DNA from: a virus
Reading direction: 5' to 3' (one strand)
Virus record (IMG/VR): IMGVR_UViG_3300022072_000178
Location: 1-20,530 of that record
DNA length: 20,530 bases
Each line of letters starts with the position of its first letter. The first letter of the stretch is position 1. The position numbers were made by a program, and so were the translations under genes. Shown piece by piece: positions 5,421 through 18,365 of the stretch. The notes under the pieces are model-generated. The model saw only the letters and a list, made by a program, of their open reading frames with translations, was not told the DNA's origin and did not search any database.

Positions 5421-6668
5421 TTAATATCCTGCCTCTAAATCCATTGGTTCCCACTCTTCTACTTCGATAGAGTTGGTAAAGTCTGCTACTGATACTTGGT
5501 CAATGTACGCTAAGGCATCTAGTAGGTCATCATGTACTTGTGAACTAGGGAAAGACATCATTTGATCTTCAAAGTGCTTCCAATCCCTATCTGAATTAAA
5601 TTTAATCTTGCTGTGTTCCATACGCCCCTGTAGGGCCCATGTGATACGGTCAGTCTTCTTCTTACCACCGTGAGTAACATCAGTGATAACAACCCATCGA
5701 CCTTGTGTTCTCATTAGGTCTTCTAGATAGGGCATGATTGCATTCTTCAATGCCCCTGCCTCTACACCTACTGTAGATGCTTCGTTATCTATGGCAGAGT
5801 TAAGTATATTCTCTGCGGTCTTCTTTATGTTCCATCTGCCGTGTAGGATGTCTTTTACCCACCACGTATCACCACAGATTTTAACTATTGCTATTGCAGT
5901 TTCATCTAACTTAGATCCAGACTTACCTCTATCTTTAGAGGATTGTTCAAAGCCAGCAGGGTCAACCGATACTATGTAGTGTCCGTAGTCTGGTTCTTTT
6001 GAAGTTTCAAACCATTCATCCTTAAAGATACCACCTGAGAATGATTCAAATGAAGCCTCAAACTCCTGACGGAATGCCTGTGAAGACATAGACCTTCTAG
6101 CTACTTCTATCTCTTTAGGGTCTATCAGTGGATTATCAGTAGAGTTAAAACTAAATACTTCCCACTCGTCATCGTCTTGTGCAGCTACGTATAGATCATA
6201 GAAGTGGTTACGCCCTTCGGGTGTTCCGATAAATAGGGCTTCACCTTTAACGTCAGCTAAGGTAGGACGGATGATCTGTTCAAAGACAGAGGGCTTCATA
6301 AAAGCATATTCATCCATCACTACATAGGCCAGACCTACACCTCGTAGAGTATCTGGTCTATCCGAACCCTTCAGGTATATCTTCCTACCATTTATTAGGG
6401 TTATTGTAGCGGTATTCTCGTGAGTAGACTTTATCACATCTCTACCCAAATCTTTCAACAGTCCCCATAAGATGTCTTTTGCCTGTTGAAAGGTAGGGGC
6501 TATATAGAATATATCCTTGCTTTGTGACTCTAGACCTTTAATCAATAACGTCCACGCTGCAAGGTAACTCTTTCCGAAACGTCTACCACACGCTGCTACT
6601 TTAAAACGAGCAGGTGAGTTGAATATCTCCATTTGTGCAGGAGTCAGACTTACCTGTATATCACTCAT
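5421..6668 (-). CDS. terL: Terminase large subunit (packaging ATPase/nuclease)
   Basis: 415 aa. The ATPase domain shows Walker A GRRFGKS at residues 28-34, Walker B VVMDEYA at 116-122 (D119, E120) and the coupling motif IGTPEG at about 147-152. The C-terminal RNase H-like nuclease shows SVDPAG (D236), GVEAG (E303) and HDDLLDALAY (D380/D381/D384), the usual three acidic clusters. The enzyme pumps DNA into the procapsid and cuts the concatemer. At 415 aa it is on the short side but complete. Its start overlaps the terS end by 8 nt, implying coupled translation, and the portal follows after 3 nt. Confidence 0.95.
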   Translation of the reverse strand: MSDIQVSLTPAQMEIFNSPARFKVAACGRRFGKSYLAAWTLLIKGLESQSKDIFYIAPTFQQAKDILWGLLKDLGRDVIKSTHENTATITLINGRKIYLKGSDRPDTLRGVGLAYVVMDEYAFMKPSVFEQIIRPTLADVKGEALFIGTPEGRNHFYDLYVAAQDDDEWEVFSFNSTDNPLIDPKEIEVARRSMSSQAFRQEFEASFESFSGGIFKDEWFETSKEPDYGHYIVSVDPAGFEQSSKDRGKSGSKLDETAIAIVKICGDTWWVKDILHGRWNIKKTAENILNSAIDNEASTVGVEAGALKNAIMPYLEDLMRTQGRWVVITDVTHGGKKKTDRITWALQGRMEHSKIKFNSDRDWKHFEDQMMSFPSSQVHDDLLDALAYIDQVSVADFTNSIEVEEWEPMDLEAGY

Positions 6669-7125
6669 CTTCTTCTAGAACAGACACTACGATAGCATCG
6701 TATGCCTTGTCCTCTTCCTTCTTACTCTTAGCGATAGACTTAGATAGGCTGTGTTCTATAACTTGACCGCCTACGTGTTCTATTGCATCCTGAGCTTGAT
6801 TACCTAACTGAGCTACAGTGATGTTGATAGCCTGACCACCTTCATGTTTAACTTCAACATCCCTCTTAGGGGGTAGTATTCGATCCAGACACATCTTCAG
6901 GCAAGTCGTATCTCCTTCCATAGCCAATTCAATTACCTTGTTGACTATATCAGGCCCTCTCTCAGACATTAATTCTCTAGAGAGTTGGGTGTACTTACCG
7001 ACACTTCCTTTAGGTCTTCCTGCTGGATTTAAAGGAGGCATACCCTTATAGAGTAATGGACTACCTTTATGTTTAGTCTTCTTCTTTCCAGTACGAGGAC
7101 TTAATTCTTCTGTTGATTTACTCAT
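6661..7125 (-). CDS. terS: Terminase small subunit-like DNA recognition protein
   Basis: 154 aa. A basic N-terminus (TGKKKTKHKGS) leads into PPLNPAGRPKGSVGKYTQLSRELM, the NP-x-GRPKG pattern of DUF5681-like terminase small subunits, then a helical segment (DIVNKVIELAMEGDTTCLKMCLDRILPPKRD). The tail is Lys- then Glu/Asp-rich. Small subunits bind the packaging start site and hand DNA to the large subunit. Support is mostly its position directly ahead of and overlapping terL. It is the first gene after the sigma-70 promoter, with a leader of about 190 nt. AGG lies about 8 nt before the ATG. Confidence 0.8.
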   Translation of the reverse strand: MSKSTEELSPRTGKKKTKHKGSPLLYKGMPPLNPAGRPKGSVGKYTQLSRELMSERGPDIVNKVIELAMEGDTTCLKMCLDRILPPKRDVEVKHEGGQAINITVAQLGNQAQDAIEHVGGQVIEHSLSKSIAKSKKEEDKAYDAIVVSVLEEDE

Positions 7126-7325: not shown

Positions 7326-7354
7326 ATTATAACATATTTCTTATCATAAGTCAA
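7326..7354 (-). promoter_or_regulatory. Sigma-70 promoter for the structural operon
   Basis: On the minus strand: -35 TTGACT (7354-7349), a 17-nt spacer (7348-7332), and a perfect -10 TATAAT (7331-7326) preceded by TGT, forming an extended -10 (TGnTATAAT). Transcription would start near 7319 and run into terS about 195 nt later. It is the best promoter in the window and implies that the host RNA polymerase can transcribe the head and packaging genes. Confidence 0.85.
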
Positions 7355-7527
7355 GTCTAATCTAGTCTTCCCCTTCAATACAGTCCATTTGGTCTACGAG
7401 ATGATACTTCTGGGCTATTAAATATTCACTTAATGCTTGACTTCCTAATTATACCCCTCTCCCTTATTTCTCCATTTTCCCTCCCATGTGCCTATGAGCC
7501 TGTATACATTATTACTCTCTAGCCACA

Positions 7528-7537
7528 GGGGGCCCCC
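7528..7537. repeat. GGGGGCCCCC palindrome
   Basis: A perfect 10-bp G5C5 palindrome (followed by two more C) stands out in otherwise A+T-rich intergenic DNA, 13 bp left of the palindrome array. It contains one of 13 GGGCCC hexamers in the window. Function unknown. Confidence 0.5.
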
Positions 7538-7550
7538 CCATGACCTGTGA

Positions 7551-7717
7551 GTCATAATATGACCAGAGAGTGCCGAATAGTCACGGAATGACCAAAGGCA
7601 GCCCAATAGTCACAATGTGACCATAGTGTGTCTGATAGTCACGGTCTGACCAGTGCGTCATAAGGTGACTAAAGCCAGCCCAATAGTCACGGCCTGACTC
7701 ACGGGTCACAAATGTAC
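7551..7717. repeat. Array of GTCA-N5-TGAC palindromes (iteron/operator-like)
   Basis: Six exact GTCA-N5-TGAC sites start at 7551, 7580, 7609, 7638, 7657 and 7686. A seventh, degenerate one (GTCA-N5-GTAC) starts at 7705. Start-to-start distances are 29, 29, 29, 19, 29 and 19 bp, so spacing is either 29 or 29 minus one helical turn. Four copies share the flank ATAGTCAC, and several are followed by CCA. The centres vary (CGGAA, CAATG, CGGTC, TAAGG, CGGCC) while the arms do not, the mark of a dimeric DNA-binding protein's sites rather than of simple duplication. A replication initiator or a master regulator of the divergent operons are the two natural readings. Confidence 0.85.
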
Positions 7718-7748
7718 CCAGAATTGACAAAAGAAAGAACCTATGGCC

Positions 7749-8109
7749 CACGTATTTAGACCCCTTTATGGGTATGATTATTGTCTGTCTATTGTTGGCA
7801 TGGTTGTTGCTAGGTATGCAATATCTATACCAAGTCGTGTTTAGACAAGTGTCGATTTTAGGATAGTATTGTTATCTAGTGTCTATATATATCCATCAAG
7901 GGCCCTAGATTGTCTTGTGAGGGGTTTTAGCTTAGGTCTATATCTTAGGATAGACTAGCTTATTTTATTCGTTAGAGAGCATTTCCATACTTTTATCATT
8001 TATCTAGTTATATTTTTATCATTTAGTTAATTGGGTATTGTGTCTATATAAGTGGGGCTAATGTATTTTATACCTATGTCGCGTTTAGGTCTGTAAGGGT
8101 CGTATTTAG
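7749..8109 (+). repeat. Five GTCGYRTTTAG-like motifs, same orientation
   Basis: GTCGTGTTTAG (7834), GTCGATTTTAG (7851), GTCGCGTTTAG (8078), GTCGTATTTAG (8099) and the weaker CACGTATTTAG (7749) all point rightward. Two close pairs are spaced 17 and 21 bp. Short, oriented, repeated motifs upstream of early genes can be promoters for a non-host polymerase, activator sites or origin elements. No polymerase gene is in this window to decide. Confidence 0.45.
7991..8025. repeat. 12-bp direct repeats in A+T-rich tract
   Basis: TTTTATCATTTA occurs at 7991-8002 and again at 8014-8025, 23 bp apart, inside the most A+T-rich stretch of the intergenic region. Easily melted DNA with short direct repeats beside a palindrome array is what a DNA-unwinding element looks like; that role is inferred. 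Confidence 0.5.
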
Positions 8110-8271
8110 AATTCTTTAATTATCAGACCTGTTAATCTATCTGTATGGGAGTTAACCGACCCATCTAGAGCCCCTAAAGATTGGATCTAGTCTGATTTCA
8201 TCGGTGAATCAAAACGGCTTTAATAGTCGGGTGCTGGAGGTAAACGAGAAGCGCAGAATTAAATTTTGTTA

Positions 8272-8319
8272 GTTTATATAGCGGCTCTTTAGATCCCCCT
8301 TTAGAGTCGCTATATAAAC
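8272..8319 (+). promoter_or_regulatory. Long hairpin in the leader of the first rightward gene
   Basis: GTTTATATAGCGGCTCT (8272-8288) pairs with AGAGTCGCTATATAAAC (8303-8319): 17 bp with a single G-T pair and a 14-nt loop (TTAGATCCCCCTTT). It ends 26 nt before the ATG at 8346 and is not followed by a T-run, so it is not a classic terminator. A 5' mRNA-protecting hairpin, an RNase III processing site or a palindromic binding site are possible. Confidence 0.75.
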
Positions 8320-8345
8320 CAACAAACCAAAGAGAGTAAATTAAG

Positions 8346-8729
8346 ATGACTAAAATAATTATGAGTACAGACCGACCAAACAAAACCCAATTAGAACTAC
8401 ATCGGGCCCGTAAAGAGTTTGAGTATTATCTAGAGTTAAAGGGGTTTAAATATGAGGTCTGCGAGGGGTCATGGGAAGGGGAGCGAGAGCAATCCTATAT
8501 GATCACTTTACGGGATGCTGGCATGGGCTTTACTAGCCTTAAACGTCTGGCTTTTGATCTATATGATCAGGATGCAGTATTAAGAATAACCGCGTATGGT
8601 GGCGCTCGTTTATTTAATTCTGATAATACTAAGGTAGACATAGGCGAGTTTAAACAAGTCGATTCTATCCCTTCAAATCAGTGTTATACGCAGTCTTTTA
8701 AGACGGGCAACATATACGCCACTGTTTAA
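8346..8729 (+). CDS. First rightward early protein, unknown function
   Basis: 127 aa, no family recognised with confidence. Soluble, mixed charge: a basic helical start (KTQLELHRARKEFEYYLELKG), then YEVCEGSWEGEREQSYMITL, a beta-like stretch that loosely resembles DUF3293-type phage proteins, then FTSLKRLAFDLYDQDAVL and a polar C-terminus. As the first gene after the control region and the long hairpin it is likely expressed earliest, the usual slot for host-takeover or anti-defence proteins; this is inference. A second in-frame ATG (8361) is also possible because the SD (AGAGAG) before 8346 is weak. Confidence 0.75.
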   Translation: MTKIIMSTDRPNKTQLELHRARKEFEYYLELKGFKYEVCEGSWEGEREQSYMITLRDAGMGFTSLKRLAFDLYDQDAVLRITAYGGARLFNSDNTKVDIGEFKQVDSIPSNQCYTQSFKTGNIYATV

Positions 8730-12202: not shown

Positions 12203-12604
12203 ATGAGTCTATCAGTAACAGAAGGTTATATCGCATTTAGTCATGTCTTAACAGAAGACCAGTATCAGGGTCAGGACGTTGGATATAATGTTACATTGTG
12301 TATGGATGCAGAAGAGGCCGCTAAGTTATCGGCTTTAGACGTTATCATTAAAGACTATCAGGGTGTAGCACAACGAAAGTTTAAGTCTGGATATAGTATT
12401 GATGTCTTAGATGATAACGGTCAGGCTATGTCTATGACTGAAGAGTTACCGCGAGGTACTAAAGTAAGAGTGCAGTGGAAACATGGTAATATCCACCCTC
12501 AGCACGGTTTAGCTACATACGCTAATCGAATTAAAGTGCTGGAGATGGGGACAGGTGATATTCCATTGGCATTTGACAACGCTGAAGAGACTACCGACTT
12601 CTAG
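12203..12604 (+). CDS. Single-stranded DNA-binding protein (short gp2.5-like)
   Basis: 133 aa. The body is beta-rich (EGYIAFSHVLTEDQ... GYNVTLCM... SGYSIDVLDDNG... RGTKVRVQWKHGNIHPQHGLATYANRIKVLEM), compatible with an OB fold. The C-terminus is acidic and ends in EETTDF; an acidic tail with terminal Phe is the hallmark of T7 gp2.5 and bacterial SSB and docks helicase and polymerase. It is much shorter than T7 gp2.5 (232 aa). As the first gene after the promoter at 12121 and head of the replication block, the role fits well. Alternative: another small phage protein with a chance acidic tail. Confidence 0.7.
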   Translation: MSLSVTEGYIAFSHVLTEDQYQGQDVGYNVTLCMDAEEAAKLSALDVIIKDYQGVAQRKFKSGYSIDVLDDNGQAMSMTEELPRGTKVRVQWKHGNIHPQHGLATYANRIKVLEMGTGDIPLAFDNAEETTDF

Positions 12605-14161: not shown

Positions 14162-14355
14162 ATACAATCAAAGATGATCCCGTAGAGGATGCTCGCATTA
14201 AGTATGAAAAAGCCTACAGGAAAAGCACTATCGAACCTAAAGAGATGGACGCTAACCTCAACCTATTATATGAAGACTATATGAACAAAGTATTGGAGCA
14301 ATTAGATTATGAGCTTAATATTCAAACCAAAGATTCCTGCAAGTTTCAGAACTGA
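14158..14355 (+). CDS. Small helical protein, unknown
   Basis: 65 aa from the ATG at 14158 (ATGA overlap with the lipoprotein stop). Charged and helical: DPVEDARIKYEKAYRKS, then LNLLYEDYMNKVLEQLDYEL. No family recognised. It overlaps the following helix-turn-helix gene by 47 nt in a different frame, an unusually long overlap for this genome. Confidence 0.65.
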   Translation: MNTIKDDPVEDARIKYEKAYRKSTIEPKEMDANLNLLYEDYMNKVLEQLDYELNIQTKDSCKFQN

Positions 14356-14593
14356 AGAAATCAAACCTAAAGAAGAGAATAAAAAATGTAGGGGCCCTCA
14401 AGTGTACTGGTCGTCTTATGAATTAGACAAACTGGTAGCACTACGAGTCTTAGGAGTTTCTTACTTAAACTGCGCCAAGTTATTACATAGGGGCCAGAGT
14501 GCTATCGTTTCAGCTATCGCATACAATGATTTGTACGGTAAAATTGATAGTCAAAGAAAAGAAAAAATAACCCAAATAATGAGAGCCTCATAA
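14309..14593 (+). CDS. Helix-turn-helix DNA-binding protein (GcrA/Myb-like)
   Basis: 94 aa. Residues 33-72 (YWSSYELDKLVALRVLGVSY, then LNCAKLLHRGQSAIVSAIAYN) match the layout of a homeodomain-like HTH: W-x-x-x-E-x-x-x-L, GVS-x-x-x-x-A-x-x-L, then a recognition helix. GcrA and many phage regulators share it. Flanks are basic (KPKEENKKCRGP and DSQRKEKITQIM). The start has GGAG 9 nt upstream inside the preceding gene. It is the only recognisable DNA-binding regulator in the window and so a candidate reader of the palindromes at 7551-7698 or the dyad at 12123; that link is untested inference. Confidence 0.65.
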   Translation: MSLIFKPKIPASFRTEEIKPKEENKKCRGPQVYWSSYELDKLVALRVLGVSYLNCAKLLHRGQSAIVSAIAYNDLYGKIDSQRKEKITQIMRAS

Positions 14594-14784: not shown

Positions 14785-15008
14785 CCCTAACAGATCAGGA
14801 GATTGAAGAGTTGGTAATATCTGAGTTAAAGAATTACTATAACGTCCTAGACCATGCGGTAGAGGATAGAGGGTGGTATCCGACCACTAGGGAAAGGGAT
14901 AACGACAGAGTTACCCTAGCAGCAATCATTAACTTATTGACACACTACCTAACAAAAGAGGATCACGATAAATGGCTATCAACTATTCGGCAGGTAACTC
15001 AGAAGTAG
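14781..15008 (+). CDS. Small acidic helical protein, unknown
   Basis: 75 aa: LTDQEIEELVISELKNYYNVLDHAVEDRGWYPTTRERDNDRVTLAAIINLLTHYLT. Helical and acidic, no motif recognised. ATGA overlap upstream, and it overlaps the primase-helicase start by 37 nt, so translation of the two is likely linked. Confidence 0.7.
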   Translation: MTLTDQEIEELVISELKNYYNVLDHAVEDRGWYPTTRERDNDRVTLAAIINLLTHYLTKEDHDKWLSTIRQVTQK

Positions 15009-16642
15009 ACAGTAGAGGCCCATGCTCTAAGTGTGGATCTAAAGATAATTTAGTTAAGTATAAAGATGGTCACGCTACCTGCTACTCTGTAGGCTGTGGT
15101 CACTTCATTAAAGCAGGGGAATCAATGCACAATCAATCAACAGTAGTTCCTACACCTCCGCGTAAAGAGGTAAAGCAGGAGGATCTAATCAAAGGCACTA
15201 GGGGCTCTATACCAGACCGCAGGTTATCCCAAGATATTCTAGACAAGTTTGGCGTTACGATAGAGTATGACGCTAAAGGAGATATCACTAAACATCACTA
15301 CCCGTACTACAACAGCGACAATAAGATTGTGGCCTTGAAGACAAGGGTAACTAAGTATAAGCAATTCTTTTGCAGTGGTAATCTAGGGGACGCAGGACTG
15401 TTCGGTCAGAATGTATTTGAGGGCCGTGCTGGTGGACGCTATATAACGGTCACTGAAGGTGAGTTAGATGCCCTAGCAGTTAGTTCTATGTTTCACGGTA
15501 AATGGCCTGTAGTAAGCTTAAAGAACGGCTCAGGTAGTGCGGTGAAGGGAATCAAAGAATCACTTGAGTTTCTGGAGTCGTTTGATAGTGTCATACTGTG
15601 TATGGATCAAGATGAAGCAGGTAAAAATGCAGCCAAGAATGTAGTAGATTTATTCTCACCTAATAAGGTTAAGGTGATGCAGATGCCTCTAAAGGATGCG
15701 TCTGAGATGTTGATGAAGGGTAAGGTTAAAGAGTTTACCGAGTGCTGGTGGTCTGCTAAACCTCATCGACCTGCTGGTGTAGTCTCTTTGTCTGATCCTA
15801 GTAGTTGGGAATTATTTGTTAAACGAGGTACTGAGGAAGTAATACCGTTACCAGAAGCTTTTGGAGCTTTAAATTTAATGATGAATGGAGGCATAGCTGC
15901 TGGTGAGATTACTGTATTAGGTGCGTTAACGTCTATCGGTAAGAGTACCGTAGTTTATAACCTAGTATACGGAATGTGGGGCGAGTCTGACAAGAGGATA
16001 GGGTGTGTTTTCTTAGAAGCTAACGTAGGCGAGGCTATTGAGAAGTTAATGTCTATACACGTAGGCAAAAACCTATCTAACACCCCTAATGAGGATAAAG
16101 ATTACGATGTCTTACATAAGCAGTATTTAGAATTAACGTCTTCTGATAAACTCCATGTATTAGATCATCATGGTTCTTTAGATGCTGAAGAACTGTTCTC
16201 TAAGATGCGTTACATGGTCAAAGGGCTAGACTGTGATGTTCTCATACTAGATCCTCTACAGGCTGCTGTTATCTCCAATGAGAATGGTATTATTGATACC
16301 TTTATGGATAAATGCCTTAAACTAGCTAAGGAAACTGGAGTTAGTATTATTGTAGTTAGTCACATGAGGAAACCTAGTGCTAAGGATGCACACGATGTAA
16401 ACGAATATGATATGAAGGGATCAGGATCTATTAACCAGATTGCATTCAACACTATCCTATTAAGCCGTGACAAATTAGCTGAAGATGAGTATGCTAGGAA
16501 CTGTACTAAGATCCAGCTAGTTAAATGTCGTAGGACAGGTAATACAGGCGTAGGTGGTTGGTTGTTCTATAACTCAGATACTAGCCGATTAGAGGCTGGT
16601 CAGGCCCCGATAATACAGGAAACAAGTAATTATGACTTCTAA
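14972..16642 (+). CDS. T7 gp4-like primase-helicase
   Basis: 556 aa (T7 gp4 is 566). An N-terminal zinc ribbon has C18, C21, C37 and C42 (CSKC...CYSVGC). The TOPRIM primase core shows TEGELDAL (E162) and MDQDEAG (D212, D214). The RecA-like helicase has Walker A GALTSIGKST (317-326), Walker B LILDPLQ (D427), SHMRKP (463-468) and RTGNTG (521-526). It unwinds DNA at the fork as a hexamer and lays RNA primers. The C-terminus ends SNYDF, an aromatic tail as in gp4, whose tail contacts the polymerase. It overlaps the polymerase start by 11 nt. All parts are present, so both activities are expected. Confidence 0.93.
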   Translation: MAINYSAGNSEVDSRGPCSKCGSKDNLVKYKDGHATCYSVGCGHFIKAGESMHNQSTVVPTPPRKEVKQEDLIKGTRGSIPDRRLSQDILDKFGVTIEYDAKGDITKHHYPYYNSDNKIVALKTRVTKYKQFFCSGNLGDAGLFGQNVFEGRAGGRYITVTEGELDALAVSSMFHGKWPVVSLKNGSGSAVKGIKESLEFLESFDSVILCMDQDEAGKNAAKNVVDLFSPNKVKVMQMPLKDASEMLMKGKVKEFTECWWSAKPHRPAGVVSLSDPSSWELFVKRGTEEVIPLPEAFGALNLMMNGGIAAGEITVLGALTSIGKSTVVYNLVYGMWGESDKRIGCVFLEANVGEAIEKLMSIHVGKNLSNTPNEDKDYDVLHKQYLELTSSDKLHVLDHHGSLDAEELFSKMRYMVKGLDCDVLILDPLQAAVISNENGIIDTFMDKCLKLAKETGVSIIVVSHMRKPSAKDAHDVNEYDMKGSGSINQIAFNTILLSRDKLAEDEYARNCTKIQLVKCRRTGNTGVGGWLFYNSDTSRLEAGQAPIIQETSNYDF

Positions 16643-18365
16643 ATCTATAGTTCTGGACATCGAAGCTAATGGCTTTAATCCAGACAAGATATGGTGTGTA
16701 GTCACCTTAGACATCAATACTAAAACGTCTACCCAGTACGTCAATAATCTAGCCCAGTTAAAGACTGATCTGTTAGACGTTACTGAGATCATAGGCCACA
16801 ACATACTAGGTTATGATATACCTGTATTGGAACGTCTATTAGGTATTGACTTCAGCAACATCAAACTAACCGATACTTTAGTCTTGTCTAGACTTGCAGA
16901 TCCAGCGCGTCAGGGTGGGCATTCTCTAGCATCATGGGGACAGCGTTTAGGTTATCCAAAAGGTAAGTTCACTGACTTCAGTTATTATAGTGATGAGATG
17001 TTAGAGTATTGTATTACCGATACTGAAGTAAACTTATTTACCTATCGTAAGTTACTAAAAGAAGTTAAGGATTTTTCTGTAGAGTCTATCCAACTAGAGA
17101 TGGACGTACATAAAATCATAGCTGAACAGACCCGTAGTGGTTGGTTACTGGACGAAAAGAAAGCCTTTATATTGTTAGCTGAACTCAAAGAGAGCATGAT
17201 GAATGCAGAAGCTACAGTCCGTAAACGCTTTACACCTTTACCAGTATGGGTAGAAAAGAACTACCCTAAGAACCCACTAAAGAAAGATGGTACTGAGGCA
17301 GCCATCATGGGTAAGCATAGAGATCAAGGCTTTCATCATAACTCACAAGGCAGTTATGGTGTCTTTGAATACCCTATCTTTAACTTAGGTAGTCGCCAAC
17401 AGATAGGACGTTACTTGATCCACTTTGGTTGGAAGCCTACTGAGTTTACTGAGACAGGCTTACCTAAGATAGACGAGAAAGTATTAGAAGATGTAAACAT
17501 ACCTGAAGCAGTGATGATCAAAGAGTTTCTATTACTCCAGAAGCGCGTAGGAATGGTTCTGAGTTGGGTAGAGTCTGTAGCAGACGATGGCAGAGTACAC
17601 GGCTACGTTAATGCTATAGGCGCTCAAACAAACCGTATGACCCATAGCAGCCCTAATGTTGCCCAAGTCCCTGCATCATACAGCCCTTATGGTAAAGAGT
17701 GCCGTGAGTGCTGGATAGTGCCCAAAGGGTATAAGCTAGTTGGTTGTGACGCTTCTGGCCTAGAATTGAGAATGCTCGCCCACTACATGAATGATGAAGA
17801 GTACATCAATCAGATTATAGACGGTGATATACATTCCTACAATCAGGAGATGGCTGGACTACCTTCTAGAGATCAGGCCAAAACGATGATTTATGCTCTC
17901 TGCTATGGGGCTGGTGACGTTAAGATGGGCACTATAATCAATGGATCTGCCGCAGAAGGTAAGCAGCTAAAGGCCACTCTATTCAATAACATTCCTTCAC
18001 TAGCTGACTTAATTACTAAGATTAAGAAAGCTTCTAACAGGGGATATTTGAAGGGCTTGGACGGTCGTAAAATCTGGGTTAGGTCTGAACACTCAGCCCC
18101 TAATTTTCTCTTACAGTCAGCAGGAGCGATTGTTATGAAAAAGGCACTTGTGTTATTATACAACAGTGCTAGAGAAGAAAAGCTAGACTTTACTTTTGTA
18201 GGTAACATCCACGATGAGTATCAGACTCAAGTGCTGGAGGCACACTCAGAACGCTTTGGTGTATTGGCTGTAGAAGCTATCGTTAATGCTGGTATAGAGT
18301 TAAACATGAACTGTCCATTGGACGGAGAATCTAAGATAGGGAATAATTGGTATGAGTGCCACTAA
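16632..18365 (+). CDS. T7-type family A DNA polymerase with 3'-5' exonuclease
   Basis: 577 aa. Exonuclease: D9/E11 (LDIEANG), HN-x-x-GYD (N57, D62), and Y126-C-I-T-D130. Polymerase: motif A CDASGLELR (D373), motif B RDQAKTMIY (R413, K417, Y421), motif C HDE (527-529). It ends NNWYECH, like the T7 enzyme, whose last residue is His. It replicates phage DNA with the helicase and SSB. The thumb segment where T7 carries its roughly 76-aa thioredoxin-binding loop (here about residues 200-248) is clearly shorter, so clamp use may differ. It is also shorter than T7 gp5 (704 aa). The HNH gene begins inside its last codons. Confidence 0.95.
   Translation: MTSKSIVLDIEANGFNPDKIWCVVTLDINTKTSTQYVNNLAQLKTDLLDVTEIIGHNILGYDIPVLERLLGIDFSNIKLTDTLVLSRLADPARQGGHSLASWGQRLGYPKGKFTDFSYYSDEMLEYCITDTEVNLFTYRKLLKEVKDFSVESIQLEMDVHKIIAEQTRSGWLLDEKKAFILLAELKESMMNAEATVRKRFTPLPVWVEKNYPKNPLKKDGTEAAIMGKHRDQGFHHNSQGSYGVFEYPIFNLGSRQQIGRYLIHFGWKPTEFTETGLPKIDEKVLEDVNIPEAVMIKEFLLLQKRVGMVLSWVESVADDGRVHGYVNAIGAQTNRMTHSSPNVAQVPASYSPYGKECRECWIVPKGYKLVGCDASGLELRMLAHYMNDEEYINQIIDGDIHSYNQEMAGLPSRDQAKTMIYALCYGAGDVKMGTIINGSAAEGKQLKATLFNNIPSLADLITKIKKASNRGYLKGLDGRKIWVRSEHSAPNFLLQSAGAIVMKKALVLLYNSAREEKLDFTFVGNIHDEYQTQVLEAHSERFGVLAVEAIVNAGIELNMNCPLDGESKIGNNWYECH

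Follow-up and report, generated by a model that had tools for sequence, protein, structure and literature searches.

The window, i.e. the whole stretch of DNA analysed here, is a complete contig (G000) of 20,530 bases from a marine bacterial virus (IMG/VR record IMGVR_UViG_3300022072_000178). A gap of about 1.2 kb separates terS from the first early gene, and the gene blocks on either side of it diverge (Table 1). Left of the gap, the minus strand carries terS (DUF5681), terL, portal, scaffold, and capsid genes. The plus strand on its right encodes an S-adenosylmethionine lyase, many small ORFs, an SSB-like protein, and a T7-type primase-helicase, followed by a family-A DNA polymerase, HNH, a Cas4-type exonuclease, and endonuclease I. 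A nucleotide search of cultured phages with the window gave no match, and neither did an Rfam search; the closest named DNA polymerases are those of HTVC115P-type pelagiphages (~50% identity). An earlier note on this DNA had called the phage T7-like, which holds for the replication genes only: a six-frame search of five long relatives (G001, G002, G005, G011, and G023) found no T7-type RNA polymerase (PF00940), with two control phages positive.

Table 1. Features in and around the gap between terS and the early genes (window coordinates; "." denotes no strand)
Feature	Position	Strand	Remarks
Terminase large subunit	5421..6668	-	
terS-like gene (DUF5681)	6661..7125	-	
sigma70 promoter TTGACT-N17-TATAAT for terS/structural operon	7326..7354	-	in 11 of 13 records examined
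GC box GGGGGCCCCCCC	7528..7539	.	abuts array on terS side in most array phages
TGAC half-site	7541..7544	.	6 bp left of first palindrome (TGAC-N6-GTCA); kept in close relatives
Six exact GTCA-N5-TGAC palindromes	7551..7698	.	steps 29, 29, 29, 19, 29
Degenerate right-hand site GTCACAAATGTAC	7704..7716	.	2 mismatches
Conserved AGAATTGACA-type element right of array	7720..7739	+	without matching -10 at normal spacing
sigma54-type -24/-12 element TTGGCATGGTTGTTGCT	7795..7811	+	97 bp past last palindrome, towards early genes
Strong hairpin directly before first early gene	8265..8326	+	-31.7 kcal/mol, z -8.7
First early gene, S-adenosylmethionine lyase family	8346..8729	+	PF23780
SSB-like protein	12203..12604	+	assigned by position and acidic tail; without profile match
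T7-type primase-helicase	14972..16642	+	
Family-A DNA polymerase	16632..18365	+	

The gap holds six exact GTCA-N5-TGAC palindromes starting at 7551, 7580, 7609, 7638, 7657, and 7686, precisely where the earlier note had located them and with the 29 and 19 bp steps it gave. That note had set down beforehand that a high density of the motif elsewhere would speak against it; the 20.5 kb record contains no further exact site (0.18 expected from shuffles), and none of 100 shuffles reached six. In a scan for clustered 4-base palindromes (at least three different letters, gaps of 2–8), the GTCA-N5 array was the sole clustered array in the window and again the top match in close relatives. Degenerate sites lengthen the row on both flanks (TGAC at 7541 and GTCACAAATGTAC at 7704). 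The spacers in the window resemble each other and were recognised by Tandem Repeats Finder as a 29 bp tandem repeat with 68% match. This similarity at the 29 bp period makes it probable that the row expanded as a 29 bp unit was duplicated, contrary to the initial proposal that recent duplication was not involved. Single-stranded folding of the array region resulted in a z of -3.1, a value to be read with the caveat that repeated palindromic arms give such pairing anyway.

Comparison with TerL relatives in IMG/VR revealed the same array in the same gap, and in many uncultured relatives it lies between the leftward terS/terL and the rightward early/replication genes. A pattern scan without protein requirement identified distant members (L082, L104, L114, L119, L084, and others), to which a second scan for 19 bp steps added L133, L139, L140, L143, L148, L150, L151, and L141. 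All array-bearing relatives are uncultured contigs. In the distant members the spacers are unrelated and the array is found near terS/terL or SSB-primase-polymerase genes; in L082 and L104 it lies directly between the two, and in L084 inside the early operon. The possibility that the array is missing from close relatives was thus not borne out. Across 18 members, counting sites with at most one mismatch, the steps amount to 29 (28 times), 19 (11 times), 30 (twice), 57 = 3 x 19 (three times), and 15 bp (once), and the site consensus is A-GTCAY-N3-RTGAC-Y. Accordingly, the constant arms proposed in the earlier note persist while the supposedly free centres are partly constrained. Across relatives the arms and the 19/29 grid alone are kept, as predicted for a row of dimer sites, and an array that is unique in the genome and conserved in this manner is well explained as a constrained row of dimer-binding sites. 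A different phage (L106, G014) shows a dense row of GTCA/TGAC half-sites with a 29 bp period at ~690–880, in a convergent gap and adjoining an 838-aa primase-polymerase-like ORF.

Next to the array, the gap contains promoter-like sequences. TTGACT-N17-TATAAT on the terS side represents a near-perfect sigma70 promoter. Towards the early genes, no consensus sigma70 promoter was found in the gap of window-clade members, and TTGGCATGGTTGTTGCTA at 7795–7812 displays the GG-N10-GC core with TGGCAY-N5-TTGCW by which sigma54 promoters are recognised. The plain expression TGGCAY-N5-TTGC was counted in ~31 contigs and loci, with positions within 1 kb of an array or C-box (see below) taken as inside. This gave 24 matches in 57.2 kb near array or C-box versus none in the other 462.7 kb, and the spacing controls N3, N4, N6, and N7 gave none inside this zone. 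A rough matrix modelled on the published consensus provided a similar result at a score of at least 15 (12 matches within 30 kb, compared with 1 in 382 kb); the plain-expression count is independent of this matrix. Some of the 24 matches are homologous copies (window, G001, L002, and L009), and different element cores occur in at least eight lineages (G005, G024, G028, L025, L058, L104, L133, and L143), including the full consensus TTGGCACG-N4-TTGCA in L058 and L143. The distance between last palindrome and element is 94–139 bp in the window clade and 166–550 bp in more distant members. The stretch between array and early genes also carries a repeated GTCGYRTWTAG motif (7834, 8078, and 8099), confined to this gap and the matching gap of close relatives.

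Enhancer-dependent sigma54 promoters, which require host RpoN and an enhancer-binding protein, classically combine a -24/-12 element with an inverted-repeat row placed ~100 bp before it. In the window, the row ends 97 bp upstream of the element. We tentatively attribute the array to an upstream activating (enhancer) function, by which a host regulator would control sigma54-dependent early transcription, and put the probability of this reading at roughly 0.4. Each palindrome would bind one regulator dimer, and the fixed 19/29 bp steps would align several dimers at regular intervals. This regulator would most likely be an enhancer-binding protein of the bacterial host; its bound oligomer would reach by DNA looping a sigma54-RNA polymerase poised at the -24/-12 element ~100 bp downstream, and this contact would switch the early operon on. 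The structural operon would rely on the separate sigma70 promoter on the terS side of the array. From sequence, we infer that the -24/-12 element is a working sigma54 promoter and that the array serves it. The earlier note had proposed a phage origin or a master operator; an enhancer of a sigma54-type early promoter suits the window better.

The identity of the putative regulator was addressed by a six-frame search of long relatives, in which no Sigma54_activat (PF00158), Fis-type HTH_8 (PF02954), or TetR_N (PF00440) domain was detected while the controls were positive. The array binder could therefore be a host protein, and the enhancer reading must assume a host activator; a host-derived binder is what we infer. 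Among the phage proteins, a helix-turn-helix-looking ORF at 14309–14593 (94 aa, without profile match, present in some close relatives only) was rejected as binder as it was not found in several array-bearing relatives.

Still, the pairing of array and element is incomplete. In eight lineages the array is kept and the element absent (G002, G003, G004, G006, G011, G018, G023, and G033), this being the case for about half of the array-bearing lineages. Four of the eight have a sigma70-like TATACTTAACC near or before the first early gene instead, and the two promoter types never occur together in the set examined. Conversely, the array-less relatives G028 and L058 have the element, which in G028 points towards terS. 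The array-proximal element of L104 and G019 is oriented towards the array itself. Consequently, the regulator would have to serve both kinds of promoter, unless the array has a different function, for which a replication origin is the strongest rival. Consensus-grade sigma54-type elements (e.g., TTGGCACGATTTTTGCA) were also observed in the gap upstream of terS in the array-less L058, L056, and L041.

As an iteron-type origin, the palindromes would be bound by an initiator dimer that opens adjacent DNA, where the T7-type primase-helicase and polymerase would then enter; such an origin would take the place of the one in T7, which depends on RNA polymerase. This explanation is the main rival, albeit a less likely one. 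T7 replication starts at promoters of the phage RNA polymerase, so that a T7-like origin would be unavailable to phages lacking this enzyme. Each genome has a single array, which occupies a long non-coding gap, with tandem initiator-type sites at a single locus as in iteron origins, and the window has an AT-rich stretch at 7950–8049 (24% GC). The position within the early operon of L084 and the related-looking 29 bp array beside the primase-polymerase-like gene of G014 point in the same direction. Moreover, the array requires at least three changes on the TerL tree, and the two main array-bearing groups share 59–61% identity in the primase versus 46–47% in TerL, with array-less TerL clades between them. 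From these comparisons, the array goes with the early/replication side more than with the packaging genes. On the other hand, no initiator candidate conserved with the array was found: a shared 63-aa zinc-ribbon-like protein, also considered and rejected as the array binder, is likewise present in DNA polymerase relatives for which no nearby array was detected. The array is missing from polymerase relatives of ~50% identity, HTVC115P among them, and from the records of HTVC115P-type pelagiphages, and no AT-rich unwinding element common to all members was demonstrated. If the array were an origin, a T7-type replisome would here start from an origin of the initiator type.

Palindromic dimer sites located between divergent operons would also suit an operator row, to which a phage or host repressor or silencer binds cooperatively and so keeps the early and/or structural promoters down. 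Two bacterial contigs of Salinivenus type carry a three-site GTCA-N5-TGAC row (19/19 steps) located at the beginning of a TetR-family gene or immediately before it, with a TolC-like gene following (L272 331–381 and L289 221–271). This arrangement suggests that a regulator can use a row of this kind as operator of its own gene. Seven bacterial loci among the matches listed keep a 19 or 29 bp step, two of them before a TetR gene; other periods, mostly 22, dominate the three-site rows of bacterial genomes among these matches. However, no promoter could be recognised within the phage row, as the sigma70 promoter lies ~200 bp to its left and the -24/-12 element 97 bp to its right, no TetR domain was found in the long relatives, and the phages are lytic-looking, with no integrase met in passing. 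We consider repression distinctly less probable than an origin.

The least probable explanation, and an improbable one, is a packaging site in which the terminase would cut at the GC box (cosN-like) and its small subunit would bind the array (cosB-like). In most members the array directly adjoins GGGGGCCCCCCC or a C5-N(1-2)-C5 box, terS is next to the gap, and C-rich boxes lie near terS whether or not a phage has the array. A few contigs end at the box, among them two from the same sample ending on opposite sides, but contig ends may also reflect a GC run that is hard to sequence. The distribution of the array does not follow TerS: L030/L031 have no array although their TerS is 60% identical to that of the window, as close as in L022 with its six exact sites; L032/L033 (44%) have none either; and G011 and L104, whose TerS is barely detectable, carry it. 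As array presence does not track TerS similarity, TerS is unlikely to be the binder. Furthermore, the GC box stands between terS and the array, which is not the arrangement of lambda cosB. A packaging role for the GC box is possible and is a question separate from the array.

Several observations concern the box itself. The contig ends L006/L269, L011/L271, and L192 cluster there (window 7526–7543), and the two contigs ending on either side of it stem from sample 3300025237. C-rich boxes of the type CCCCC-N1-2-CCCCC or G5C7 were found at 7528–7539 of the window and in L041, L042, L058, L066, L071, L079, L224, L239, L247, and L255; they are rare elsewhere in the close relatives of the window and occupy a non-coding gap, often near terS, with or without an array. 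G027 and L058 show G6AG6-like forms, which we take to be reminiscent of mitochondrial CSB II. The C-rich box is a candidate packaging site or R-loop element, conceivably acting as a G-quadruplex or R-loop primer. In the array-less L247 and L255, other recurring elements (TTTATAAAG and AGCCCTATAAAG) accompany the C box and are perhaps the counterpart of the GTCA array.

Returning to the enhancer reading, its wider form is slightly more doubtful than the function of the array as such. A broad uncultured phage group with T7-type replication genes and no RNA polymerase of its own may have wired its early genes to host sigma54 via a multi-dimer enhancer array, infection proceeding only when a particular host activator is active. 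If true, infection would depend on a switch in the physiology of the host (its nitrogen status, its flagellar programme, or stress), which would explain how these phages manage without their own RNA polymerase. A literature search found no described phage using sigma54 early promoters, which is not proof of absence.

Compared with known systems, the window phage shares with T7 the type of primase-helicase, DNA polymerase, and endonuclease I, whereas the single-subunit RNA polymerase that with its promoters defines a T7 origin was not found in long relatives. Lambda ori has four iterons of ~19 bp. The array resembles lambda ori and plasmid iteron origins in its near-identical tandem sites, regular spacing, and single locus, and differs in its short, perfectly symmetric arms and in that no initiator gene was recognised. 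Lambda cos (cosN-cosB) likewise combines a GC-rich box with a row of protein sites near terS, but there array and TerS type go together, whereas the presence of the phage row does not track TerS, and the row is located on the opposite flank of the box. Unlike bacterial sigma54 systems, the array belongs to a phage that looks lytic and for which no activator gene was detected, comprises six or more sites on a 19/29 bp grid, and is accompanied by the element in about half of the relatives. Sites of FlrA/FleQ-type enhancer-binding proteins read yGTCA-N6-TGACr (PMC4641369), and as the phage gap is N5 throughout, membership in this class is not claimed. Still, the array shares the GTCA/TGAC half-sites of the FlrA/FleQ type. 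As in bacterial promoters of the FleQ/FlrA and NorR type, an inverted-repeat row precedes TGGCAY-N5-TTGCW by ~100 bp. The 94–139 bp measured in the window clade agree with the location of upstream activating sequences "100 bp or more upstream" of the promoter (PMC4641369).
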